Under the pieces are notes generated by a model, which was given only the letters and a program-made list of their open reading frames with translations, searched no databases and had not been told where the DNA came from. The translations under genes were made by a program, and so were the position numbers. A DNA stretch of 64,000 bases from Antedon mediterranea (Eukaryota > Echinodermata > Crinoidea > Comatulida > Antedonidae): assembly GCF_964355755.1 (NCBI RefSeq), contig NC_092670.1, positions 21,699,201 through 21,763,200 on the forward strand, read 5' to 3'. This document shows, one piece after another, positions 3,201 to 47,880 of the stretch. Positions within the stretch are counted from its first letter, which is position 1, and the number at the start of each line of letters is the position of its first letter.

Positions 3201-4486
3201 CATCGGCAAGGGTTCGAGTCTCACTCGCTCTATGGTTCTGGTGGTAGTCTTCTCGGATAAGGACTATAAATCGTAGGTTCCGTGTACACACATTGCTTGT
3301 GTGCATTTTAAAGGGCCTAGTAGTACATCTTTTGAGACGAGTAGGTGGTTACCCAGGTGTACTAGTTTACACTCAGCCACGTTGTCATGATGATGAGAGA
3401 GCACCTTAATAATAGTGGCTGCACTGACATGACGTAGCCCTTGGGGGAGAAGCATGTAGTTGAAAAGTGTAACATCTGAATCCACATCGCATAGAGACTA
3501 GTTGTATTTTGCACGTGCTATACAAATTTAAAACCATTAATCACCATTAACCATATAAATAAGACTTCAGGGTCACTAACCATCACCGCCGCGCAGCGGA
3601 TGAATGTTTTTAAATTGGGTACTCAAGAGATGCGAATCAGAGAGTCTAGTAGGTTTTTTTTTCTCTTTTGTGGGGGAAACTACACTTTTATTGCAATGAT
3701 AAACAATATGGTAAAGGTCAATGAATATTTAGGTTATTCTTTACTCCATGATTTAGGTGATACTGAGGTTAAAAGATTATATAAAATATTTTGATATTGT
3801 GTTGAAATCTAGATAATACAAATATGTATACAGAGCAAATTTATATTAAAAGAGCTAAAACAATATAATAAGATAATTGATATTCAGTATTAAAAATTGA
3901 GATTTGATATAATAATGATAAAATGGTATATTGCATTATTATAAGATTGTGTTTTGTTTAAATACTTTAATAAAATTATATAGTTTTACATTTTTAACAT
4001 AATATTGCTTTTATTATTTACATGAATTATATTGTAAAATAACAAACTAATAAATATTGCGTCTAGTAGTTAGAAGGAGCTAGTAGTGCTAGTACCTAGA
4101 ATTAGAGGCCTCCATCATAGGCTAGCAAGGTCCTTGGACTAGGCTAGTAGTACCTATATATACAAGCAAGGGCATGCCTATCTACTACTAGGGCTAGGCT
4201 TAGGTCCTACTTGCATCATAGATTAGTAGGTCTAGGCCTAGCCTCCTAGGCATACTATGAATATATATCAATCATCCACACTAGAGTAGGCATGTAAGGT
4301 TTCAGGACAGTGGCAGTTAGGCCTAGCTAGCTTAATGCTAAAAAAACAACTTACAGAGTATGTAGACACCCGGGTAGCATCCGTTAAAATCGAATGTTGT
4401 TTACTATAATCACGTTCATAGCCTAATACTCGATTATTCTCACATAAAGTAATTTCAACACCGTTTTCTAGTCGTGTTTTCGCCAT
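205..4486 (-). CDS. NOL11: nucleolar protein 11 (5' part, seven exons; 3' end outside the window)
   Basis: NOL11 is a metazoan t-UTP/SSU-processome component needed for rDNA transcription and pre-18S rRNA processing in the nucleolus. Coding exons on the minus strand: 4486-4355 (ATG at 4486), 2693-2580, 2288-2022, 1698-1554, 1457-1284, 989-742, 267-205. All junctions are GT-AG with matching phases (0,0,0,1,1,0); the donor after 2022 (GTTTTT) is weak. Recognised blocks include HSWSVRQNSPLTSSAVY, LLSTAVYSLLADDTSALVVF, WDSKFITLQAKMELP and PNASLAGALG, which align in order with vertebrate NOL11 (AEVYRIL...VLFKEGAV, WNIKFQTLQ, SLAGALG). The first 44 residues (MAKTRLENGVEITLC...) fit the family N-terminus. 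The start codon sits one base from the 9-bp target duplication of the giant foldback element, so the native 5' UTR is now displaced beyond 17250. Intron 1 carries a SINE, and a MITE lies between the 1284 donor and the 989 acceptor. The last visible exon is short and lysine/glutamate-rich. Confidence 0.93.
400..452 (+). repeat. LINE-type 3' tail
   Basis: The segment ends in ACAATAAAGATTTATC followed by repeated TTATC units, the kind of short terminal repeat seen at the 3' end of CR1/L2-like non-LTR elements. It lies in a NOL11 intron. No upstream reverse-transcriptase sequence is visible. Confidence 0.35.
1131..1242. mobile_element. MITE family A, copy 1
   Basis: A 112-bp element whose ends are inverted repeats of about 22 bp (AAAGCTTTGTCTACACTATC and its complement GATAGTGTAGACAGAGCTTT). 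The flanks are compatible with a TA target duplication, as for Tc1/mariner-derived MITEs. The interior carries imperfect ACCATATTTGGGCAC-like units. Related copies are at 56073-56200 and, partial, at 52520-52660. It lies in a NOL11 intron, just downstream of the GTAAGAG donor. Confidence 0.8.
3149..3560 (+). mobile_element. tRNA-derived SINE, family A, full-length copy
   Basis: The head (about 3152-3231) is tRNA-like, with an A-box region GTGGTCAAGCGGTTAAGA and B box GGTTCGAGTC inside inverted GAGTGAG/CTCACTC ends, resembling a class II (Leu/Ser-type) tRNA. A body follows (TAGTCTTCTCGGATAAGGAC, then a GAGACGAGTAGG block), and the tail contains CATAGAGACTAGTTGTATTTTG and ends in ACCATTA repeats. 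The same head and body occur inverted at 30983-31214 and the same tail at 60125-60185. It sits in NOL11 intron 1. Confidence 0.8.
4040..4262. repeat. CTAG/AGGCCTAG-rich tract
   Basis: Dense short palindromic words (CTAGTAG, AGGCCTAG, GCCTAG) with no open frame. Similar tracts occur at 19830-19910 and 57570-57660. They appear to be a compositional feature of this genome rather than a discrete element. Confidence 0.4.
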
Positions 4487-4657
4487 GTGTGGATTGGCTT
4501 GTGTCAAGCTAGCCGACAATAAGCCAGCCGACAATAAGCCAGCCCACTTTTATTTTTTCCAGCCGACAATAACTATGAAACGCCGTTTGTGTATTTTTCA
4601 CATTTTCAGTATTGCTTAAGGTTTTTATAGTATTAGAAATTCAATATTTGTGAGAAA

Positions 4658-7600
4658 ATGGCGGATTGCTCCTGGGAGTCACTTGGTGGGATTATACTAG
4701 GGTACCTCCTTAGTCGTCCAGTATAAGTTAGAGTAGGACCGCTGGTCCTGTTTACTCAGCCCTCATCTTTTAAATCTGAGTGTAACTCAATTACGATTTT
4801 TAATATTATAGTGAAATTTGATATTGTATTTGTGAGAAAATGGCGGATTGCTCCTGGGAGTCACTTGGTGGGATTATACTAGGGTACCTCCTTAGTCGTC
4901 CAGTATAAGTTAGAGTAGGACCATTGGTCCTGTTTACTCAGCCCTAATCTTTTAAATCTGAGTGTAACTCAATTACGATTTTTAATATAGTGAAATTTGA
5001 TACTGTATTTGTGAGAAAATGGCGGATTGCTCCTGGGAGTCACTTGGTGGGATTATACTAGGGTACCTCCTTAGTCATCCAGTATAAGTTAGAGTAGGAC
5101 CGCTGGTCCTGTTTACTCAGCGCTCATCTTTTAAATCTGAGTGTAACTCAATTACGATTTTAAATATTATAGTGACATTTGGTACTGTATTTGTGAGAAA
5201 ACGGCGGATTGCTCCTGGAAGTCACTCGGTGGGATTATACTAGGGTACCTCCTTAGTTGTCCAGTATAAGTTAGAGTAGGACCGCTGGTCTTGTTTACTC
5301 AGCCCTCATCTTTTAAATCTGAGTGTAACTCAATTACGATTTTTAATATTATAGTGAAATTTGATACTGTATTTGTGAGAAAATGGCGGATTGCTCCTGG
5401 GAGTCACTTGGTGGGATTATACTAGGGTACCTCCTTAATCGTCCAGTATAAGTTAGGATGGGACCACTGGTCCCGTTTACTCAGCCCTCATCTTTTAAAT
5501 CTGAGTGTAACTCAATTACGATTTTTAATATTATAGTGAAATTTGATACTGTATTTGTGAGAAAATGGCGGATTGCTCCTGGGAGTCACTTGGTGGGATT
5601 ATACTAGGGTACCTCCTTAATCATCCAGTATAAGTTAGAGTAGGACCACTGGTCCTGTTTACTCAGCCCTCATCTTTTAAATCTGAGTGTAACTCAATTA
5701 CGATCTTTAATATTATAGTGAAATTTGATACTGTATTTGTGAGAAAATGGCGGATTGCTCCTGGGAGTCACTTGGTGGGATTATACTAGGGTACCTCCTT
5801 AGTCGTCCAGTATAAGTTAGAGTAGGACCGCTGGTCCCGTTTACTCAGCCCTCATCTTTTAAATCTGAGTGTAACTCAATTACGATTTTTTATATAGTGA
5901 AATTTGATACTGTATTTGTGAGAAAATGGCGGATTGCTCCTGGGAGTCACTTGGTGGGATTATAATAGGGTACCTCCTTAGTCGTCCAGTATAAGTTAGG
6001 GTGAGACCACTGGTCCCGTTTACTCAGCCCTCATCTTTTAAATCTGAGTGTAACTCAATTACGATTTTTAATATTATAGTGAAATTTGATACTGTATTTG
6101 TGAGAAAATGGCGGATTGCTCCTGGGAGTCACTTGGTGGGATTATACTAGGGTACCTCCTTAGTAGTCCAGTATAAGTTAGATTAGGACCGCTGGCCCTG
6201 TTTACTCAGCCCTCATCTTTTAAATCTGAGTGTAACTCAATTACGATCTTTAATATTATAGTGAAATTTGATACTGTATTTGTGAGAAAATGGCGGATTG
6301 CTCCTGGGAGTCACTTGGTGGGATTATACTAGGGGACCTCCGTAATCATCCAGTATAAGTTAGAGTAGGACCGCTGGTCCCGTTTACTCAGCCCTCATCT
6401 TTTAAATCTGAGTGTAACTCAATTACAATTTTTTATATAGTGAAATTTGATACTGTATTTGTGAGAAAATGGCGGATTGCTCCTGGGAGTCACTTGGTGG
6501 GATTATACTAGGGTACCTCCTTAGTCGTCCAGTACAAATTAGAGTAGGACCGCTGGTCCTGTTTACTCAGCCCTCATCTTTCAAATCTGAGTGTAACTCA
6601 ATTACAATTTTAAATATTATAGTGACATTTGGTACTGTATTTGTGAGAAAACGGCGGATTGCTCCTGGAAGTCACTCGGTGGGATTATACTAGAGTACCT
6701 CCTTAGTTGTCCAGTATAAGTTAGAGTAGGACCGCTGGTCTTGTTTACTCAGCCCTCATCTTTTAAATCTGAGTGTAACTCAATTACGATTTTTAATATT
6801 ATAGTGAAATTTGATACTGTATTTGTGAGAAAATGGCGGATTGCTCCTGGGAGTCACTTGGTGGGATTATACTAAGGTACCTCCTTAGTCGTCCAGTTCA
6901 AGTTAGGGTGGGACCACTGGTCCCGTTTACTCAGCCCTCATCTTTTAAATCTGAGTGTAACTCAATTACGATTTTTAATATTATAGTGAAATTTGATACT
7001 GTATTTGTGAGAAACTGGCGGATTGCTCCTGGGAGTCACTTGGTGGGATTATACTAGGGTACCTCCTTAGTCATCCAGTATAAGTTAGAGTAGGACCACT
7101 GGTCCTGTTTACTCAGCCCTCATCTTTTAAATCTGAGTGTAACTCAATTACGATCTTTAATATTATAGTGAAATTTGATACTGTATTTGTGAGAAAATGG
7201 CGGATTGCTCCTGGGAGTCACTTGGTGGGATTATACTAAGGTACCTCCTTAGTCGTCCAGTATAAGTTAGAGTAGGACCGCTGGTCCCGTTTACTCAGCC
7301 CTCATCTTTTAAATCTGAGTGTAACTCAATTACGATTTTTAATATTATAGTGAAATTTGATACTGTATTTGTGAGAAAATGGCGGATTGCTCCTGGGAGT
7401 CACTTGGTGGGATTATACTAGGGTACCTCATTAGTCATCCAGTATAAGTTAGAGTAGGACCACTGGTCCTGTTTACTCAACCCTCATCTTTTAAATCTGA
7501 GTGTAACTCAATTACGATCTTTAATATTATAGTGAAATTTGATACTGTATTTGTGAGAAAATGGCGGATTGCTCCTGGGAGTCACTTGGTGGGATTATAC

Positions 7601-10600
7601 TAGAGGACCTTCTTAATCGTCCAGTATAAGTCAGAGTAGGACCGCTGGTCCCGTTTACTCAGCCCTCATCTTTTAAATCTGAGTGTAACTCAATTACGAT
7701 TTTTTATATAGTGAAATTTGATACTGTATTTGTGAGAAAATGGCGGATTGCTCCTGGGAGTCACTTGGTGGGATTATACTAGGGTACCTCCTTAGTCGTC
7801 CAGTATAAGTTAGGGTGGGACCACTGGTCCCGTTTACTCAGCCCTCATCTTTTAAATCTGAGTGTAACTCAATTAAGATTTTTAATATTATAGTGAAATT
7901 TGATACTGTATTTGTGAGAAAATGGCGGATTGCTCCTGGGAGTCACTTGGTGGGATTATACTATGGTACCACCTTAATCATCCAGTATAAGTTAGCTTAG
8001 GACCACTGGTCCTGTTTACTCAGCCCTCATCTTTTAAATCTGAGTGTAACTCAATTACGATCTTTAATATTATAGTGAAATTTGATACTGTATTTGTGAG
8101 AAAATGGCGGATTGCTCCTGGGAGTCACTTGGTGGGATTATACTAGGGTACCTCCTTAATCGTCCAGTATAAGTTAGGATGGGACCACTGGTCCCGTTTA
8201 CTCAGCCCTCATCTTTTAAATCTGAGTGTAACTCAATTACGATTTTTAATATTATAGTGAAATTTGATACTGTATTTGTGAGAAAATGGCGGATTGCTCC
8301 TGGGAGTCACTTGGTGGGATTATACTAGGGTACCTCCTTAATCATCCAGTATAAGTTAGAGTAGGACCACTGGTCCTGTTTACTCAGCCCTCATCTTTTA
8401 AATCTGAGTGTAACTCAATTACGATCTTTAATATTATAGTGAAATTTGATACTGTATTTGTGAGAAAATGGCGGATTGCTCCTGGGAGTCACTTGGTGGG
8501 ATTATACTAGGGTACCTCCTTAGTCGTCCAGTATAAGTTAGAGTAGGACCGCTGGTCCCGTTTACTCAGCCCTCATCTTTTAAATCTGAGTGTAACTCAA
8601 TTACGATTTTTTATATAGTGAAATTTGATACTGTATTTGTGAGAAAATGGCGGATTGCTCCTGGGAGTCACTTGGTGGGATTATAATAGGGTACCTCCTT
8701 AGTCGTCCAGTATAAGTTAGGGTGAGACCACTGGTCCCGTTTACTCAGCCCTCATCTTTTAAATCTGAGTGTAACTCAATTACGATTTTTAATATTATAG
8801 TGAAATTTGATACTGTATTTGTGAGAAAATGGCGGATTGCTCCTGGGAGTCACTTGGTGGGATTATACTAGGGTACCTCCTTAGTAGTCCAGTATAAGTT
8901 AGATTAGGACCGCTGGCCCTGTTTACTCAGCCCTCATCTTTTAAATCTGAGTGTAACTCAATTACGATCTTTAATATTATAGTGAAATTTGATACTGTAT
9001 TTGTGAGAAAATGGCGGATTGCTCCTGGGAGTCACTTGGTGGGATTATACTAGGGGACCTCCGTAATCATTCAGTATAAGTTAGAGTAGGACCGCTGGTC
9101 CCGTTTACTCAGCCCTCATCTTTTAAATCTGAGTGTAACTCAATTACAATTTTTTATATAGTGAAATTTGATACTGTATTTGTGAGAAAATGGCGGATTG
9201 CTCCTGGGAGTCACTTGGTGGGATTATACTAGGGTACCTCCTTAGTCGTCCAGTACAAATTAGAGTAGGACCGCTGGTCCTGTTTACTCAGCCCTCATCT
9301 TTCAAATCTGAGTGTAACTCAATTACAATTTTAAATATTATAGTGACATTTGGTACTGTATTTGTGAGAAAACGGCGGATTGCTCCTGGAAGTCACTCGG
9401 TGGGATTATACTAGAGTACCTCCTTAGTTGTCCAGTATAAGTTAGAGTAGGACCGCTGGTCTTGTTTACTCAGCCCTCATCTTTTAAATCTGAGTGTAAC
9501 TCAATTACGATTTTTAATATTATAGTGAAATTTGATACTGTATTTGTGAGAAAATGGCGGATTGCTCCTGGGAGTCACTTGGTGGGATTATACTAAGGTA
9601 CCTCCTTAGTCGTCCAGTTCAAGTTAGGGTGGGACCACTGGTCCCGTTTACTCAGCCCTCATCTTTTAAATCTGAGTGTAACTCAATTACGATTTTTAAT
9701 ATTATAGTGAAATTTGATACTGTATTTGTGAGAAACTGGCGGATTGCTCCTGGGAGTCACTTGGTGGGATTATACTAGGGTACCTCCTTAGTCATCCAGT
9801 ATAAGTTAGAGTAGGACCACTGGTCCTGTTTACTCAGCCCTCATCTTTTAAATCTGAGTGTAACTCAATTACGATCTTTAATATTATAGTGAAATTTGAT
9901 ACTGTATTTGTGAGAAAATGGCGGATTGCTCCTGGGAGTCACTTGGTGGGATTATACTAAGGTACCTCCTTAGTCGTCCAGTATAAGTTAGAGTAGGACC
10001 GCTGGTCCCGTTTACTCAGCCCTCATCTTTTAAATCTGAGTGTAACTCAATTACGATTTTTAATATTATAGTGAAATTTGATACTGTATTTGTGAGAAAA
10101 TGGCGGATTGCTCCTGGGAGTCACTTGGTGGGATTATACTAGGGTACCTCATTAGTCATCCAGTATAAGTTAGAGTAGGACCACTGGTCCTGTTTACTCA
10201 ACCCTCATCTTTTAAATCTGAGTGTAACTCAATTACGATCTTTAATATTATAGTGAAATTTGATACTGTATTTGTGAGAAAATGGCGGATTGCTCCTGGG
10301 AGTCACTTGGTGGGATTATACTAGAGGACCTTCTTAATCGTCCAGTATAAGTCAGAGTAGGACCGCTGGTCCCGTTTACTCAGCCCTCATCTTTTAAATC
10401 TGAGTGTAACTCAATTACGATTTTTTATATAGTGAAATTTGATACTGTATTTGTGAGAAAATGGCGGATTGCTCCTGGGAGTCACTTGGTGGGATTATAC
10501 TAGGGTACCTCCTTAGTCGTCCAGTATAAGTTAGGGTGGGACCACTGGTCCCGTTTACTCAGCCCTCATCTTTTAAATCTGAGTGTAACTCAATTAAGAT

Positions 10601-11466
10601 TTTTAATATTATAGTGAAATTTGATACTGTATTTGTGAGAAAATGGCGGATTGCTCCTGGGAGTCACTTGGTGGGATTATACTATGGTACCACCTTAATC
10701 ATCCAGTATAAGTTAGCTTAGGACCACTGGTCCTGTTTACTCAGCCCTCATCTTTTAAATCTGAGTGTAACTCAATTACGATCTTTAATATTATAGTGAA
10801 ATTTGATACTGTATTTGTGAGAAAATGGCGGATTGCTCCTGGAAGTCACTCGGAGGGATTATACTAGGGTACCTCCTTAGTTGTCCAGAATAAGTTAGAG
10901 TAGGACCGCTGGTCTTGTTTACTCAGCCCTCATCTTTTAAATCTGAGTAACTCAATTACGATTTTTAATATTATAGTGAAATTTGATACTGTATTTGTGA
11001 GAAAATGGCGGATTGCTCCTGGGAGTCACTTGGTGGGATTATACTAGGGGACCGCCTTAATCGTCCAGTATAAGTTAGAGTAGGACCACAGGTCCCGTTT
11101 ACTCAGCCCTCATCTTTGAAATCTGAGTGTAACTCAATTACTATTCTTAAAATTATAGTGAAATTTGATACTGTATTTGTGAAAAAATGGCGGATTGCTC
11201 CTGGGAGTCACTTGGTGGGATTATACTAGGGTACCTCCGTAGTCGTCCAGTATAAGTTAGGGTGTGACCATTGGTCCCGTTTACTCAGCCCTCATCTTTT
11301 AAATCTGAGTGTAACTCAATTACGATTTGTTATATAGTGAAATTTGATACTGTATTTGTGAGAAAATGGCGGATTGCTCCTGGGAGTCACTTGGTGGGAT
11401 TATACTAGAGGACAGCCTTAATCGTCCAGTATAAGTTAGAGTAGGACCGCTGGTCCTGTTTACTCA
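4658..11466 (+). repeat. left arm: about 37 direct copies of a 182-bp satellite
   Basis: The units run head to tail, each beginning ATGGCGGATTGCTCCTGGG and containing GGACCACTGGTCC or GGACCGCTGGTCC, a KpnI-like GGTACC and TTTAAATCTGAGTGTAACTC. The period is 182 bp, with a shorter variant of about 178 bp where TTTTTTATATAG replaces TTTTTAATATTATAG. Short open frames of 60-74 codons recur in some units but are interrupted in most by a TAG or TAA and are not conserved, so they are not called as genes. The last unit is cut off after GTTTACTCAG at the palindrome centre. Confidence 0.95.
5342..10783 (+). repeat. 2,721-bp tandem segmental duplication inside the left arm
   Basis: Blocks 5342-8062 and 8063-10783 are two adjacent copies, each of 15 satellite units, offset by exactly 2,721 bp. 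Unit-specific variants (for example GTACAAATTAGAG, AGAGGACCTTCTTAATC, ATGGTACCACC) recur in the same order in both. I noticed one substitution (about 6349 versus 9070: ATCATCCAG versus ATCATTCAG), so the event is very recent or was created during assembly. Confidence 0.85.
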
Positions 11467-14400
11467 GGAGCAATCCGCCATTTTCTCACAAATACAGTAT
11501 CAAATTTCACTATATAAAAAATCGTAATTGAGTTACACTAAGATTTAAAAGATGAGGGCTGAGTAAACGGGACCAGCGGTCCCACCCAAACTTATACTGG
11601 ACGACTAAGGAGGTCCCCTAGTATAATCCCACCAAGTGACTCCCAGGAGCAATCCGCCATTTTCTCACAAATACAGTATCAAATTTCACGATAATATTAA
11701 AGATCGTAATTGAGTTACACTCAGATTTAAAAGATGAGGGCTGAGTAAACAGGACCAGTGGTCCTACTCTAACTTATACTGGACGACTAAGAAGGTACCC
11801 TAGTATAATCCCACCAAGTGACTCCCAGGAGCAATCCGCCATTTTCTCACAAATACAGTATCAAATTTCACTATAATATTAAAAATCGTAATTGAGTTAC
11901 ACTCAGATTTAAAAGATGAGGGCTGGGTAAACAAGACCAGCGGTCCTACTCTAACTTATACTGGACAACTAAGGAGGTACCCTAGTATAATCCCTCCGAG
12001 TGACTTCCAGGAGCAATCCGCCGTTTTCTCACAAATACAGTACCAAATTTCACTATAATATTTAAAATCGTAATTGAGTTACACTCAGACTTAAAAGATG
12101 ATTGCTGAGTAAACAAGACCAGCGGTCCTACTCTAACTTATACTGGACAACTAAGGAGGTACCCTAGTATAATCCCACCAAGTGACTCCCAGGAGCAATC
12201 CTCCATTTTCTCATAAATACAGTATCAAATTTCACTATACAAAAAATCGTAATTGAGTTACACTCAGATTTAAAAGATGAGTGCTGAGTAAACGGGACCA
12301 GCGGTCCTACTCTAACTTATACTGGACGATTAAGGAGGTCCCCTAGTATAATCCCACCAAGTGACTCTCAGGAGCAATCCACCATTTTCTCACAAATACA
12401 GTATCAAATTTCACTATAATATTAAAGATCGTAATTGAGTTACACTCAGATTTAAAAGTTGAGGGCTGAGTAAACAGGACAAGTGGTCCTACTCTAACTT
12501 ATACTGAACGACTAAGGAGGTACCCTAGTATAATCCCACCAAGTGACTCTCTGGAGCAATCCGCCATTTTCTCACAAATACAGTATCAAATTTCACTATA
12601 ATATTAAAAATCGTAATTGAGTTACACTCAGATTTAAAAGATGAGGGCTGAGTAAACAAGACCAGCGGTCCTACTCTAACTTATACTGGACAACTAAGGA
12701 GGTACCCTAGTATAATCCCACCAAGTGACTCCCAGGAGCAATCCTCCATTTTCTCATAAATACAGTATCAAATTTCACTATACAAAAAATCGTAATTGAG
12801 TTACACTCAGATTTAAAAGATGAGTGCTGAGTAAACGAGACCAGCGGTCCTACTCTAACTTATACTGGACGATTAAGGAGGTCCCCTAGTATAATCCCAC
12901 CAAGTGACTCTCAGGAGCAATCCACCATTTTCTCACAAATACAGTATCAAATTTCACTATAATATTAAAGATCGTAATTGAGTTACACTCAGATTTAAAA
13001 GTTGAGGGCTGAGTAAACAGGACAAGTGGTCCTACTCTAACTTATACTGGACGACTAAGGAGGTACCCTAGTATAATCCCACCAAGTGACTCCCTGGAGC
13101 AATCCGCCATTTTCTCACAAATACAGTATCAAATTTCACTATAATATTAAAAATCGTAATTGAGTTACACTCAGATTTAAAAGATGAGGGCTGAGTAAAC
13201 AAGACCAGCGGTCCTACTCTAACTTATACTGGACAACTAAGGAGGTACCCTAGTATAATCCCACCGAGTTACTTGCAATCCGCCGTTTTCTCACAAATAC
13301 AGTAGCAAATTTCACTATAATATTTAAAATCGTAATGGAGTTACACTCAGATTTAAAAGATGAGGGCTGAGTAAACGGGACCAGCGGTCCTACTCTAACT
13401 TATACTGGACGACTAAGGAGGTACCCTAGTATAATCTCACCAAGTGACTCCCAGGAGTAATCCGCCATTTTCTCACAAATACAGTATTAAATTTCACTAT
13501 ATAAAAAATCGTAATTGAGTTACACTCAGATTTAAAAGATGAGGGCTGAGTAAACGGGACCAGCGGTCCTACTCTAACTTATACTGGACGATTAAGGAGG
13601 TCCCCTAGTATAAACCCACCAAGTGACTCCCAGGAGCAATCCGCCATTTTCTCACAAATACAGTATCAAATTTCACTATAATATTAAAGATCGTAATTGA
13701 GTTACACTCAGATTTAAAAGATGAGAGCTGAGTAAACGGGACCAGCGGTCCTACTCTAACTTATACTGGACGATTAAGGAGGTCCCCTAGTATAATCCCA
13801 CCAAGTGACTCCCAGGAGCAATCCGCCATTTTCTCACAAATACAGTATCAAATTTCACTATAATATTAAAGATCGTAATTGAGTTACACTCAGATTTAAA
13901 AGAGGAGGGCCGAGTAAACAGGACCAGTGGTCCTACTCTAACTTATACTGGACGACTAAGGAGGTACCCTAGTATAATCCCACCAAGTGACTCCCAGGAG
14001 CAATCCGCCATTTTCTCACAAATACAGTATCAAATTTCACTATAATATTAAAAATCGTAATTGAGTTACACTCAGATTTAAAAGATGAGGGCTGAGTAAA
14101 CGGGACCAGTGGTCCCACCCTAACTTATACTGGACGACTAAGGAGGTACCCTAGTATAATCCCACCAAGTGACTCTCAGGAGCAATCCGCCATTTTCTCA
14201 CAAATACAGTATCAAATTTCACTATAATATTAAAAATTGTAATTGAGTTACACTCAGATTTAAAAGATGAGGGCTGAGTAAACAAGACCAGCGGTCCTAC
14301 TCTAACTTATACTGGACAACTAAAGAGGTTCCCTATAGTATAATCCCACCGAGTGACTTCCAGGAGCAATCCGCCGTTTTCTCACAAATACAGTACCAAA

Positions 14401-17095
14401 TTTCACTATAATATTTAAAATCGTAATTGAGTTACACTCAGATTTAAAAGATGAGGGCTGAGTAAACAGGACCAGCGGTCCTACTCTAACTTATACTGGA
14501 CGACTAAGGAGATACCCTAGTATAATCCCACCAAGTGACTCCCAGGAGCAATCCGCCATTTTCTCACAAATACAGTATCAAATTTCACTATATAAAAAAT
14601 TGTAATTGAGTTACACTCAGATTTAAAAGATGAGGGCTGAGTAAACGGGACCAGCGGTCCTACTCTAACTTATACTGGACGATTAAAGAGGTCCCCTAGT
14701 ATAATCCCACCAAGTGACTCCCATGAGCAATCCGCCATTTTCTCACAAATACAGTATCAAATTTCACTATAATATTAAAGATCGTAATTGAGTTACACTC
14801 AGATTTAAAAGATGAGGGCTGAGTAAACAGGGCCAGCGGTCCTACTCTAACTTATACTGGACGACTAAGGAGGTACCCAAGTATAATCCCACCAAGTGAC
14901 TCCCAGGAGCAATCTTCCATTTTCTCACAAATACAGTATCAAATTTCACTATAATATTAAAAATCGTAATTGAATAACACTCAGATTTAAAAGATGAGGG
15001 CTGAGTAAACAGGACCAGTGGTCCTACTCTAACTTATACTGGACGACTAAGGAGGTACCCTAGTATAATCCCACCAAGTGACTCCCCCCATTTCTCACAA
15101 ATACAGTATCAAATTTCACTATAATATTAAAAATCGTAATTGAGTTACACTCAGAATTAAAAGATGAGGGCTGAGTAAACGGGACAAGCGGTCCTACTAC
15201 TCTAACTTATACTGGACGATTAAGGAGGTCCCCTAGTATAATCCCACCAAGTGACTCCTAGGAGCAATCCGCCATTTTCTCACAAATACAGTATCAAATT
15301 TCACTATAATAATAAAGATCGTAATTGAGTTACACTCAGATTTAAAAGATGAGGGCTGAGTAAACAGGGCCAGCGGTCCTGCTCTAACTTATACTGGACG
15401 ACTAAGGAGGTACCCAAGTATAATCCCACCAAGTGACTCCCAGGAGCAATCCGCCATTTTCTCACAAATACAGTATCAAATTTCACTATAATATTAAAAA
15501 TCGTAATTGAGTTACACTCATATTTAAAAGATGAGGGCTGAGTAAACAGGACCAGTGGTCCTACTCTAACTTATACTGGACGACTAAGGAGGTACCCTAG
15601 TATAATCCCACCAAGTGACTCCCAGGAGCAATCCGCCATTTTCTCACAAATACAGTATCAAATTTCACTATAATATTAAAAAGTCGTAATTGAGTTACAC
15701 TCAGATTTAAAAGATGAGGGCTGAGTAAACAAGACCTGCGGTCCTACTCTAACTTATACTGGAAGACTAAGGAGGTACCCATGTATAATCCCACCAAGTG
15801 ACTCCCAGGAGCAATCCTCCATTTTCTCACAAACACAGTATCAAATTTTACTATAATATTAAAAATTGTAATTGAGTTACACTCAGATTTAAAAGATGAG
15901 GGCTGAGTAAACAGGACCAGTGGTCCTACTCTAACTTATACTGGACGACTAAGGAGGTACCCTAGTATAATCCCACCAAGTGACTCCCCCCATTTCTCAC
16001 AAATACAGTATCAAATTTCACTATAATATTAAAAATCGTAATTGAGTTACACTCAGATTTAAAAGATGAGGGCTGAGTAAACGGGACAAGCGGTCCTACT
16101 CTAACTTATACTGGACGATTAAGGAGGTCCCCTGCTATAATCCCACCAAGTGACTCCTAGGAGCAATCCGCCATTTTCTCACAAATACAGTATCAAATTT
16201 CACTATAATATTAAAGATCGTAATTGAGTTACACTCACATTTAAAAGATGAGGGCTGAGTAAACAGGGCCAGCGGTCCTACTCTAACTTATACTGGACGA
16301 CTAAGGAGGTACCCAAGTATAATCCCACCAAGTCACTCCGATCCCAGGAGCAATCCGCCATTTTCTCACAAATACAGTATCAAATTTCACTATAATATTA
16401 AAAATCGTAATTGAGTTACACTCAGATTTAAAAGATGAGGGCTGAGTACAGGACCAGTGGTCCTACTCTAACTTATACTGGACGACTAAGGAGGTACCCT
16501 AGTATAATCCCACCAAGTGATTCCCAGGAGCAATCCGCCATTTTCTCACAAATACAGTATCAAATTTCACTATAATATTAAAAAGTCGTAATTGAGTTAC
16601 ACTCAGATTTAAAAGATGAGGGCTGAGTAAACAAGACCTGCGGTCCTACTCTAACTTATACTGGACGACTAAGGAGGTACCCTAGTATAATCCCACCGAG
16701 TGACTTCCAGGAGCAATCCGCCGTTTTCTCACAAATACAGTACCAAATTTCACTATAATATTTAAAATCGTAATTGAGTTACACTCAGATTTAAAAAGAT
16801 GAGGGCTGAGTAAACAGGACCAGCGGTCCTACTCTAACTATACTGGACGACTAAGGAGGTACCCTAGTATAATCCAACCAAGTGACTCACAGGAGCAATC
16901 CGCCATTTTCTCACAAATACAGTATCAAATTTTACTATAATATTAAAAATCGTAATTGAGTTACACTCAGATTTAAAAGATGAGGGCTGAGTAAACAGGA
17001 CCAGCGGTCCTACTCTAACTTATACTGGACGACCAAAGAGGTACCTTAGTATAATCCCACCAAGTGACTCCCAGGAGCAATCCGCCATTTTCTCA
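11467..17095 (-). repeat. right arm: about 31 inverted copies of the 182-bp satellite
   Basis: The same units as in the left arm, read on the minus strand. This arm is about 1.2 kb shorter and more divergent, with its own higher-order repeats: one with a period of about 542 bp (three units; for example 12181 and 12723) and one of about 904 bp (five units; 15080 and 15984, marked by the variant TGACTCCCCCCATTTCTCAC). The arms are therefore not exact mirror images. Confidence 0.93.
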
Positions 17096-17249
17096 CAAAT
17101 ATTGAATTTCTAATACTGTAAAAACCTTAAGCAATACTGAAAATGTGAAAAATACACAAACGGCGTTTCATACTTATTGTCGGCTGGAAAAAATAAAAGT
17201 GGGCTGGCTTATTGTCGGCTGGCTTATTGTCGGCTAGCTTGACACAAGC

Positions 17250-17689
17250 TGTGGATTGTTTGCTGCTAGTAAAAACAAAATAGCGCCACCAATTCATTGC
17301 ACAACCACTGTGTGCACCACGTGTGCACCCACGGTGGCACCACACACCGTTGTACTGTAGCGCATGGCCCACACGCATCGGCTTCACACACAAAAAAGAA
17401 CGGATGATTTCATTAATCAATGAACCTGGCGAACGACGATCGGTCAAGTGTGTTTTTATCCAACCTAAGAATTTTTAAGCATGTATTAATGATTAAAAAT
17501 GTCTTTCTGAAATAATAATTATGTTCACTTTTTTTGTTGTTCTTTGTCGATGGTCTCCGATATCCTAGCTGTATCTTCTCTGCTCCCCCATACCACGTGT
17601 CACAAGCGCAATCCGCTTCCTTTTATTTTATTAGACCCAGCTAGCCAGATAAGAAAGAGGCATGCAATTTCTTTTTGTACGATTAAAGC
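17250..17689 (-). promoter_or_regulatory. displaced 5' flank of NOL11 (proposed)
   Basis: This is the sequence beyond the right target duplication. Removing the element and one duplication copy would join it directly to the NOL11 ATG, so it is the likely ancestral 5' UTR and promoter. No TATA box, CpG cluster or open reading frame of note was seen. The role is inferred from position only. Confidence 0.35.
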
Positions 17690-21171: not shown

Positions 21172-24100
21172 ATGTCATTGAGCACTGTCTTGCAGCAATC
21201 TAGTCGGCATGTTCTGCGACAATTTGTAAAATCAAAAAAGTTTACACAAGTTTCTTACAGGTAAAATTTTAAAAATATGAACATATTGACAAAATGATGT
21301 TATAATTTATTGTACTGATAGATGTAAAATAATAATATCTCTTTTTGTTTACAGATCTTGTCTTTTGCACACTTCAACTACTCAGCAAATATCTTTTAAT
21401 GTACAAGATGAGGAGGATTTTAAAGCAAGAGTGTTGGAAAGCAACAAACCAGTACTAGTTGATTTTCATGCAAAGTAAGGCTTTTAGAGTGGGGTGGAGT
21501 AAGATTCACATTAAGTAGTAAAGTAATACTTTATTTCAAATAAAAACATAAGAATGTAACAAACATTCCTCAGCATATGCAGAGCAAAACAAGACAACAA
21601 ATACAAAACACTTAAAATAAGAAGTAAAAATACATCCAAAAGGCATAACATTCAGATTGTTATAAAAATGTACAGTTAGAAATTACATTTTTAGGGAACA
21701 GTTTTCCCATTGTCGGTTTAAATAAATGGAACAGGGGGAAATATTTTTTTTCCTATGTAATTAAGGCAGAAATCATAAATAATTCATTACCTTAATTATT
21801 TTCTATTATAAAGAATTGCAGGTTCTAGGACACCTACCCCCTAGACAGTTACCCCCCAGATGTTTACCACCCGGACAACTACCCCCTTAGGACAACTACC
21901 CCCTTAGGACAACTACCCCCTTAGGACAACAACCCCCTTAGGATAACAACCCCCCGGACAACTACCCCCCGGACAACCACCCCCTTAGGACAACTACCCC
22001 CTTAGGACAACTACCCCCCCCCCCCCACAATCTAAAAGTAGACAAATATATAGGACCGGTTTCTGTAAAAATGAAATCATCTGTTTTTAACGGGTGTTTC
22101 GAAACTAGAGACCCGAGACCAGAGACCTGACACGAGACCCAATACGAAAAGGGAGACCTATATTTGGGTCTCCCTTTTCGTATATTAGGGTCTCCCTTTT
22201 CGTATAGTGTGGTCTCTTTTTTCGTATATTTGGGTCTCCCATTTCGTATATTTGGGTCTCCCTTTTCGTATATTTGGTCTTCCTTTTCGTATATTTAGGT
22301 CTCCCTTTTCGTATATTAGGGTCTCCCTTTTCGTATAGTGGGGTCTCCCTTTTCGTATAGTGGGGTCTCCCTTTTCGTACGTGGGTCTCCCTTTTCGTAT
22401 ATTTAGGTCTCCCTTTTCGTATTGGGTCTCGGGTCTCATGGTCTCTGGTCTCGGGTCTCTAGTTTCGAAACACCCGTTTTTAACCGATTATTCTGTTTAA
22501 CAGCACGCTAGGCCCTAGATGTGCTAGATTTAAAGTACCGTATTTATTGAAAAAAACGGCCTGGGCTGTTTATTGTTTAGGTGGTTTTTAGGTGGACATT
22601 TATTGGAAGAAAGTTGTTTATTCAATGGGAGGGGGTATAATCTAATGGAAATAGACGCCGATTATTCCATATGATGTGTCATGAGAGTGACATGTTCACC
22701 GTTTATTTGAGGGGAATTTATTTAAAGATCGCCGTTTATTCGGTGAGTGAACATTAAGGTCAAATATCAAAAGTGATATTATTCTTCAAGTGTACAAAAA
22801 TACAAATGACAAATTTGAGACAAAAATTAATTCTTTTAAGACCAGTGGTTATCGAAGCATTGTCCTGACGCAAAAATTATTATTATTATTAGCGAACCCA
22901 GTCTTTACAGTAAATACAGGGAGTACTATATAATACGTTCGACTATCCTATGATCATGTGTGACAATCTTCAGTTTATACCAGGCTATATTTATGTTCAA
23001 TCTTTTTCTTTTGTTTACAATAATGAATAGTAATTCGTCAAAGTAACGAATTAAAATATAGTTATTAATTCCTATTATACGCTGTTGCAGAGTCAGGTTG
23101 TTGAATGGTCTGGGTGGTAGTTGTCCGTCCGGGGGGTAGTTGTTCTAAAGGGATAGTTTTCTGGGTGGTAGTTGTCCAGGGGTTAGTTGTCCTACGGAGT
23201 TAGTTGCCCTCGGAGTATTGTCCAGGTCCAGGAGGTAGTTGTCCTACGGGACGGGGAGTATTGTGTCAGAGGCAGTTGTCCGCGGGGTAATTACCCGGGG
23301 GGGGGGGGGGGGGTAATTGTCAAGGGGTAATTGTTCCTAGGGGGTAGTTGTCCAGGGGTTAGTTGTCCTATGGAGGTAGTTGTCCTAAAAGATTATTTGC
23401 CCTCGGAGTATGGTCCAGGAAGTAGTTGTCCTACGGGGAGTATTGTGTCAGAGGTAGTTGTCCGCGGGGTAATTACCCGGGGAGGAGGGGGTAATTGTCC
23501 GGGGGGTAATTGTTCCTAGGGGTAATTGTCCGGGGGGTAGTTGTCCCTAGGGGTAATTGTCCCGGGGATAGTTGTCCTAAGGGGGTAGTTGTCCTAAGGG
23601 GGTAGTTGTCCTAAGGGGGTAGTTGTCCGGGGGTAGTTGTCCTAAAGGGGTAGTTGTCCTAAAGGGGTAGTTGTCCTAAGGAGGTAGTGGTCCAGGTGGT
23701 GGTTGTCCGGGGGGTAGTTTTCCGGGGGGTAAATGTCCAGGGGGTGAATATCCGGATACGAGAATTGCAAGATAGCTGATCTACTTCCTAAACCTAACCC
23801 TCTAAATAATCTCTCAACTATTAAAAAAAAACATGTTCTTGAAAGACCTCGAACCGAGGGCGCCGGTGTAATAGGTTAAAGCCCTTACCAATAGACCGGG
23901 CAATAGACCAAACATTTTGGTTGGCAAACGCTGTTTACACAAATTATTTAATCTCTCTGCATGCTTATATAGCGCCCTCTATAATGTCCCATATTACATC
24001 ATAATTATTCTAATAAATTATTAATTAATTGCCTAAATTCCATAGGAAAAAAATAATGCGAACTTGGGGTGCTTTTTTTTCTTGCCAAAATATAAATATT

Positions 24101-24388
24101 TCACATTTACTACAGTATTTCTATATTGATGTATACTCATCCAATTTATCTTTCAGTTGGTGTGGTCCATGTAAACTGCTTGGTCCTAGATTGGAAGAGG
24201 TAGTGTCAAAGTCAAATGACAAGGTCGACCTGGCTAAAGTAGATATTGACAAACTGGTGGACCTTGCAATGCATTACAGTGTATCATCTGTTCCTACGGT
24301 GATTGTAATTAAAGACGGGGTCAAAGTTGATCAGTTTATTGGATTACAAGATGCAGAAGTTATAGAGGATATGATCGAAAAAGTCTAA
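21172..24388 (+). CDS. TXN2: mitochondrial thioredoxin (thioredoxin 2)
   Basis: A small dithiol oxidoreductase of the mitochondrial matrix that passes electrons from thioredoxin reductase 2 to peroxiredoxin 3 and other substrates. Exons are 21172-21260, 21355-21474 and 24157-24388 (stop TAA), with phases 2 and 2, giving 146 residues. The first 40 or so residues are rich in Arg, Lys, Ser and Thr with almost no acids (VLRQFVKSKKFTQ), as expected for a mitochondrial presequence. The thioredoxin fold follows, starting ISFNVQDEDDF, with active site W71-C-G-P-C75, then LAKVDIDKLVDLA and the cis-proline loop SVPTV. The order and motifs match vertebrate TXN2 (FNIQDGPDF, WCGPCK, KVDIDDHTDLA, AVPTV). 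An in-frame ATG at 21073 lies inside the upstream transposon, so 21172 is preferred. Intron 2 (2.7 kb) holds two nested foldback elements, a MITE-like segment and a SINE. Possible AATAAA signals lie at 24873 and 24892. Confidence 0.96.
22092..22475. mobile_element. 384-bp nested foldback element with 9-bp target duplication
   Basis: The inverted ends begin GGGTGTTTCGAAACTAGAGA and continue through GACCCGAGACCAGAGACC. The interior is about 14 tandem copies of a unit of about 20 bp built on GGTCTCCCTTTTCGTATA. It is flanked by a perfect 9-bp direct repeat GTTTTTAAC (22083-22091 and 22476-22484). It lies inside the larger foldback element 21821-23760 and so inserted later. An 84-codon minus-strand frame across it is a by-product of the repeat. 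Confidence 0.9.
22536..22750. repeat. degenerate MITE related to the 63294-63728 element
   Basis: It begins TACCGTATTTATTGAAAAA and contains several CGTTTATT/TTTATTCGGTG motifs resembling the CCGTATTTATTCG...GCGTTTATTCG element near the right end of the window. No clean terminal repeat pair is left. Confidence 0.45.
23838..23990 (-). mobile_element. tRNA-derived SINE fragment
   Basis: The minus strand has a tRNA-like segment (about 23912 down to 23840): GGTCTATTGGTAAGGGC as A-box region and GGTTCGAGGTC as B box. On the plus strand a TTATATAGCGCCCTCTATAATG block resembling the tails of other local SINEs follows, in TXN2 intron 2. The two parts may be separate fragments. Confidence 0.45.
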
Positions 24389-46109: not shown

Positions 46110-47880
46110 ATAGCCGACCGTACTTACTGTTGCTGTATCGTACTTACTGTTGCTGTATCGTACTTACTGTTGCTGTACCGTACCTACTGTTTCTGTACCG
46201 TACTTACTGTTGCTGTACCGTACTTACTGTTGCTGTACCGTACTTACTGTTGCTTTACCGTACTTACTGTTGCTGTACCGTACTTACTGTTGCTGTATCG
46301 TACTTACTGTTGCTGTACCGTACCTACTGTTGCTGTATCGTACCTACTGTTGCTGTACCGTACTTACTGTTGCTTTGCCGTACTTACTGTTGCTTTGCCG
46401 TACTTACTGTTGCTGTACCGTACTTACTGTTGCTGTACCGTACTTACTGTTGCTGTACCGTACTTACTGTTGCTGTACCGTACTTACTGTTGCTGTACCG
46501 TACTTACTGTTGCTGTATCGTACTTACTGTTGCTGTACCGTACCTACTGTTTCTGTACCGTACTTACTGTTGCTGTACCGTACTTACTGTTGCTGTACCG
46601 TACTTACTGTTGCTTTACCGTACTTACTGTTGCTGTACCGTACTTACTGTTGCTGTATCGTACTTACTGTTGCTGTACCGTACTTACTGTTGCTTTACCG
46701 TACTTACTGTTGCTGTACCGTACTTACTGTTGCTGTATCGTACTTACTGTTGCTGTACCGTACCTACTGTTGCTGTATCGTACCTACTGTTGCTGTACCG
46801 TACTTACTGTTGCTTTGCCGTACTTACTGTTGCTTTGCCGTACTTACTGTTGCTGTACCGTACTTACTGTTGCTGTACCGTACTTACTGTTGCTGTACCG
46901 TACTTACTGTTGCTGTACCGTACTTACTGTTGCTGTACCGTACTTACTGTTGCTGTACCGTACCTACTGTTGCTGTACCGTACTTACTGTTGCTGTATCG
47001 TACTTACTGTTGCTGTACCGTACTTACTGTTGCTGTACCGTACTTACTGTTGCTGTACCGTACTTACTGTTGCTGTACCGTACTTACTGTTGCTGTACCG
47101 TACTTACTGTTGCTGTACCATACTTACTGTTGCTGTACCGTACTTACTGTTGCTGTACCGTACTTACTGTTGCTGATGTATCGTACTTACTGTTGCTGTA
47201 CCGTACTTACTGTTGCTGTACCGTACTTACTGTTGCTGTACCGTACCTACTGTTGCTGTACCGTACTTACTGTTGCTGTACCGTACTTACTGTTGCTGTA
47301 CCGTACTTACTGTTGCTGTACCGTACTTACTGTTGCTTTACCGTACTTACTGTTGCTGTACCGTACTTACTGTTGCTGTACCGTACTTACTGTTGCTGTA
47401 CCGTACTTACTGTTGCTGTACCGTACTTACTGTTGCTGTACCGTACTTACTGTTGCTTTACCGTACTTACTGTTGCTGTACCGTACTTACTGTTGCTGTA
47501 CCGTACTTACTGTTGCTGTACCGTACTTACTATTGCTGTACCGTACTTACTGTTGCAGTACCGTACCTACTGTTGCTGTACCGTACTTACTGTTGCTGTA
47601 CCGTACCTACTGTTGCTGTACCGTACTTACTGTTGCTGTACCGTACTTACTGTTGCTGTACCGTACTTACTGTTGCTGTACCTACTGTTGCTGTACCGTA
47701 CTTACTGTTGCTGTACCGTACTTACTGTTGCTGTACCGTACTTACTGTTGCTTTACCGTACTTACTGTTGCTGTACCGTACTTACTGTTGCTGTACCGTA
47801 CTTACTGTTGCTGTACCGTACTTACTATTGCTGTACCGTACTTACTGTTGCTGTACCGTACTTACTGTTGCTGTACCTTA
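46110..47880 (+). repeat. 20-bp minisatellite, about 88 copies
   Basis: Tandem TACTTACTGTTGCTGTACCG with scattered T/C and G/T variants and two length slips (around 47175 and 47680). All three forward frames stay open for hundreds of codons because 20 bp is not a multiple of three: each frame cycles through the same 20-residue peptide and no unit contains a stop in any frame. There is no start context, splice structure or similarity to support translation, so it is treated as non-coding, upstream of the YWTD gene. Confidence 0.97.

Follow-up and report, generated by a model that had tools for sequence, protein, structure and literature searches.

A foldback transposon family with 182-bp satellite arms in Antedon mediterranea and a loopless copy directly before the NOL11 start codon

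Structure of the NOL11 locus and the inserted element

The window (the whole stretch of 64,000 nucleotides analysed here) contains a gene on the minus strand whose joined exons match the Pfam family NOL11_N with an E value of 6.9e-31, in agreement with the identity proposed in the initial annotation. Coding exon 1 (MAKTRLENGVEITLCENNRVLGYERDYSKQHSILTDATRVSTYS) occupies positions 4355 to 4486 and is followed by the donor gtaagt, exon 2 lies at 2580 to 2693, and exon 3 lies at 2022 to 2288. A genome search found no second copy of NOL11, and a PDB search with the NOL11 N-terminus gave no match. The ATG is at 4484 to 4486, and a single base (4487) separates it from the 9-bp sequence TGTGGATTG at 4488 to 4496. 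The same 9 bp occur at 17250 to 17258, and the perfect duplication encloses an element of 12,753 bp (4497 to 17249). Thus, only one base and the 9-bp duplication lie between the NOL11 start codon and the element.

The two ends of the element are inverted copies of each other. The left terminal segment of 148 bp (4497 to 4644, plus strand) contains repeated CAGCCGACAATAA motifs and carries the GCTTGTGTCAAGC end, and the right terminal segment (17102 to 17249, minus strand) is its inverted copy. The ends had initially been described as identical, which is true for the first 76 bp, after which they are 97% identical over about 490 bp. Between the terminal segments lie about 70 units of a 182-bp satellite arranged in two facing arms, close to the original estimate of about 68. 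The left arm (4645 to 11467, plus strand) comprises 38 inward-facing units, and the right arm (11468 to 17101, minus strand) comprises 30 anchored and about two degenerate units in inverted orientation. The arms abut directly at 11467/11468 with no unique loop between them, as had been claimed, and the sequence across the junction is GTTTACTCAG/GAGCAATCCG (11458 to 11477). The description of the element as a near-perfect palindrome was overstated, since the left and right arms measure 6.97 and 5.78 kb, respectively, and are about 94% alike. Furthermore, the left arm contains an internal duplication of 2,721 bp, corresponding to 15 units, with 98% identity. The 148-bp terminal segment and the satellite unit have no more than 7 bp of sequence in common, and the units therefore do not appear to be multiplied end motifs.

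The sequence from 17259 onward is likely the old 5' flank of NOL11, displaced by the insertion. The part at 17259 to 17400 (minus strand) contains a CCAAT box at 17289 to 17293 and a CACGTG box at 17338 to 17343, and it may have served as the promoter. Exons resembling a mitochondrial thioredoxin were observed on the plus strand at 21172 to 24385, divergent from NOL11, which suggests that the old NOL11 promoter was located between the two genes. The insertion beside NOL11 is real in the assembly, and the allele carrying it may be heterozygous. NOL11 transcription may now start within the element end, or a leader running through the element may be removed by splicing, and the palindrome might also provoke replication stress, as the initial annotation proposed. 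Human cells and Xenopus need NOL11 to produce rRNA (PMC3420923, PMC4354908), and the insertion offers a natural test of how such a gene copes with a large palindrome beside its ATG.

A family of paired elements with target-site duplications

We searched the genome (354 Mb, 18 contigs) with the end motif, allowing up to 3 mismatches and using the motif read backwards as a control. The motif occurred 72 times, whereas the control gave no occurrence. At least 28 paired elements were recognised, ranging from 7.5 to 79 kb and covering 492 kb together. When the ends were cut for the 27 pairs besides the window element, one had no right end, and duplications were present at all 26 pairs with both ends readable: 18 were exact 9-bp duplications, 5 had one or two mismatches, and 3 were exact 8-bp duplications. 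With the window element included, exact 9-bp duplications numbered 19. A lack of paired ends and duplications in other copies had been named at the outset as evidence against the insertion; both were instead found at other sites in the genome. The presence of the same ends with matching 8- to 9-bp duplications at 26 other places excludes a chance origin of the structure in the window and supports the original proposal that a foldback-type transposon was inserted, with target-site duplication, directly before the NOL11 ATG.

The ends fell into two subfamilies that differ at several end positions, GCCGACAATAA (subfamily A, to which the window element belongs) and GCCAACAATAA (subfamily B). Several B ends were identical over 500 bp, indicating that subfamily B moved recently. 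In addition, the dinucleotide CG was over-represented at a distance of three bases from the outer side of the duplication (9 of 48 symmetrised sites from 24 duplications, against a background of about 2), which may reflect a target preference.

A gene-bearing member of the family

A 33-kb member with B ends and the exact duplication ATGTGCGAG was located at C3:8279859-8313032. Its arms of about 10.0 and 7.4 kb enclose a loop of 15.8 kb, in which two open frames, 1,108 and 774 codons long, were found. Pfam searches detected a PHD finger in the first frame (PF00628, E value of 3.5e-5, residues 152 to 198) and two domains in the second, UCH (E value of 1.7e-20) and Peptidase_C48 (E value of 9.8e-19). 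An intron with its donor at 8302122 and an acceptor that ends at 8302464 joins the two frames without a frameshift, and they are thus likely to form one gene. This gene is apparently intact and is predicted to encode a PHD finger, a DDE core, a ubiquitin hydrolase and an Ulp1-type protease. The C3 protein has a DDE-like core with D, D, HxCxxH and E motifs, and distant relatives at C2:17927650, C4:13582253 and C10:11147772 show these conserved motifs as DATG, another aspartate, HxCxxH and, further along, a glutamate. It is a plausible guess that the UCH and Ulp1-type proteases counter host silencing or stabilise the transposase.

The C3 transposase core had no Pfam match to the MULE domain (PF10551), and no relatives of it were found among viral contigs. 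A profile comparison by hhalign with the canonical MULE proteins encoded in this genome gave a weak match (probability of 11%, E value of 0.0028 for one comparison) in which both aspartates were aligned. Only one full copy of the core was found in the genome. It could be asked whether the C3 gene is incidental cargo and the elements are moved by another transposase, such as one of the 36 PF10551 matches in the genome, which include canonical MULE domains with long open frames in several copies. However, none of the 36 matches lies inside a paired element, whereas the C3 gene sits between the arms of the family, and both this gene and its relative at C2:17927650 combine a PHD finger with the DDE-like core. 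We consider movement by another transposase improbable. The absence of a Pfam MULE match and the weak profile match nevertheless count against a Mutator-related family moved by the C3 gene, as does the fact that the C3 copy belongs to end subfamily B and the window element to A.

Transposition of whole palindromes and changes in unit number

Two elements, E1 (C1:21189257-21202419, 13,163 bp) and E2 (C10:3232243-3245223, 12,981 bp), showed only 21 differences over 12,981 aligned bases (99.84% identical), and their duplications differed. The difference in length between them was exactly one 182-bp unit. Furthermore, the arm-to-arm junction of the window element (GTTTACTCAG/GAGCAATCC) was also present in the insertions at C3:32277385 and C4:24974957, and the lengths of the three elements were 12.7, 11.7 and 20.9 kb, respectively. 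The near-identity of E1 and E2 and the junction common to three sites indicate that whole loopless palindromes transpose. Different junctions were observed in E1/E2, C5:19156498, C4:23422530, C4:3743353 and C11:35179. The occurrence of several distinct junctions indicates that loss of the loop, or joining of the arms, took place on several occasions, after which the loopless forms transposed and changed in length by whole units. Unequal exchange would be the simplest cause of these changes in arm length. The initial annotation was right about the type of insertion but missed the large family, its transposase-encoding member and the copying of loopless palindromes between chromosomes.

Long palindromes are hard to assemble, and inverted satellite arrays could in principle be artefacts of a hairpin read or of an inverted contig joined in error. 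The left arm (on the plus strand of the assembly) was indeed longer in 19 of the 25 elements located, despite the arbitrary orientation of the assembly, and array lengths may be distorted; this excess is due to chance or to an effect of assembly on palindromes. However, a hairpin artefact would give an inverted repeat of the outer flank, whereas 27 elements each have two different outer flanks with a duplication directly at the ends, either matching at 7 to 9 of 9 positions or exact over 8 bp. An artefactual origin of the inverted arrays is therefore very unlikely.

When up to 3 mismatches were allowed, a 35-base piece of the 182-bp unit was counted 1,672 times genome-wide (1,014 forward and 658 reverse). 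This number does not exceed the capacity of the paired elements and therefore does not point to a large centromeric array elsewhere, in an assembly of which parts may be missing or collapsed. An alternative to transposition as a unit is that unrelated terminal repeats captured an ordinary satellite array, or that rolling-circle DNA seeded the array at this site. Satellite arrays can spread as extrachromosomal circles, and changes in copy number at the level of units were observed. However, the units are always flanked by this one pair of ends and its duplications, the arms of the gene-bearing C3 copy are of the same kind, E1 and E2 correspond over their full length, and the genome count can be accommodated in the paired elements. 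This alternative is very unlikely. Satellite DNA in this genome moves as a transposon.

Comparison with known foldback transposons and proposed mechanism

The elements have the structure of the foldback class, with long inverted tandem-repeat arms and a loop that is small or absent. FB elements of Drosophila, which occur with NOF, likewise have long inverted arms of tandem repeats, 9-bp duplications and both looped and loopless forms. However, the units of FB are short (tens of bp), as opposed to 182 bp in the present family.

Arms of satellite units had been regarded as unusual in the initial annotation, but precedents exist in Tetris of Drosophila virilis (PMC4079207) and in Rehavkus-1_TC of Tribolium (PMC10218199). 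Tetris is a satellite-linked foldback element with tandem units of about 220 bp in its inverted ends and duplications of 8 to 10 bp, and it resembles the present family in all these features. Its arms reach up to 1.7 kb, three complete copies are described, and no autonomous partner is known (PMC4079207). Compared by description, the arms in A. mediterranea are 5 to 10 times longer, the family comprises 28 pairs, and one copy is a candidate autonomous element. Galileo, a foldback element of the P superfamily with a THAP-type transposase and duplications of 7 to 8 bp (discussed in PMC4079207), also has tandem units in long ends. Membership of Galileo or the P superfamily is ruled out by the 9-bp duplications and by the C3 protein, which has a PHD finger and in which Pfam detected no THAP domain.

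Rehavkus is a Mutator-related group described with a PHD finger, duplications of 9 bp and a mini-satellite close to the end (PMC6446971). Its member Rehavkus-1_TC is a 9.5-kb element with a 164-bp satellite in its inverted termini, mostly in 5 and 8 units (PMC10218199). The family fits the description of Rehavkus in its 9-bp duplications, the PHD finger on the transposase protein and the satellite units in the inverted ends. In contrast to the reported Rehavkus arrays, the arms here reach 15 kb and most copies are loopless. The C3 gene also adds UCH and Ulp1 domains, which are not mentioned in the parts of the Rehavkus descriptions available (PMC6446971, PMC10218199). Satellite-bearing foldbacks are already known, and the present family stands apart by its scale, by how common its loopless forms are and by the two added protease domains.

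Taken with these comparisons, the window element is very probably a non-autonomous, loopless member of a satellite-armed foldback family that is related to Mutator, most like Rehavkus, and moved in trans. According to this model, a transposase from a looped member would recognise the conserved GCTTGTGTCAAGC ends, move the whole block between them by cut-and-paste and leave a 9-bp duplication. The arms would lengthen or shorten by whole 182-bp units through unequal exchange, and palindromes that had lost the loop would still be mobile in trans; one of them would have landed one base before the NOL11 coding start. We infer that the C3 gene mobilises other members of the family, and the manner of loop loss and any effect on NOL11 are likewise only proposed. 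A more far-reaching version is a tentative possibility that we rate as rather unlikely, namely that this single gene-bearing element, in which a deubiquitinase and a SUMO-type protease are part of the transposase protein, moves entire satellite palindromes larger than 10 kb, that satellite arrays in this genome originate, grow and spread in the form of transposon arms, and that one arm end now serves as the leader or promoter of NOL11.

It is debated whether transposons give rise to satellites or simply acquire them. In the present family, a gene-bearing element and its loopless relatives carry the same 182-bp arrays, and near-identical 13-kb palindromes at two sites differ by one unit, so that the spread and length change of a satellite by transposition become directly testable. 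Tetris, the closest published case, has no known autonomous partner, whereas a candidate exists in this family.

Other repeats and unusual members

A segment of 78.9 kb at C6:18981631-19060520 lies between family ends with a duplication matching at 8 of 9 positions, and its interior contains a fibrinogen-like exon as well as a frame resembling a tyrosine recombinase; the segment may represent a composite transposon or the result of nested insertions. At C7:23919922-23935255, a second insert with inverted-looking ends and tandem arrays of 97 bp and 193 bp was found inside a family element and is perhaps another satellite-bearing transposon. Older short relatives were observed at C1:26634000-26636000 and C5:10442426-10443573. 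Their inverted similarity runs past the GCTTG end into AT-rich flanks, which suggests a related family with different termini. In the window itself, about 88 copies of a 20-bp repeat (ACCGTACTTACTGTTGCTGT) occupy positions 46117 to 47877 with a period of 20, and several reading frames are open across them.
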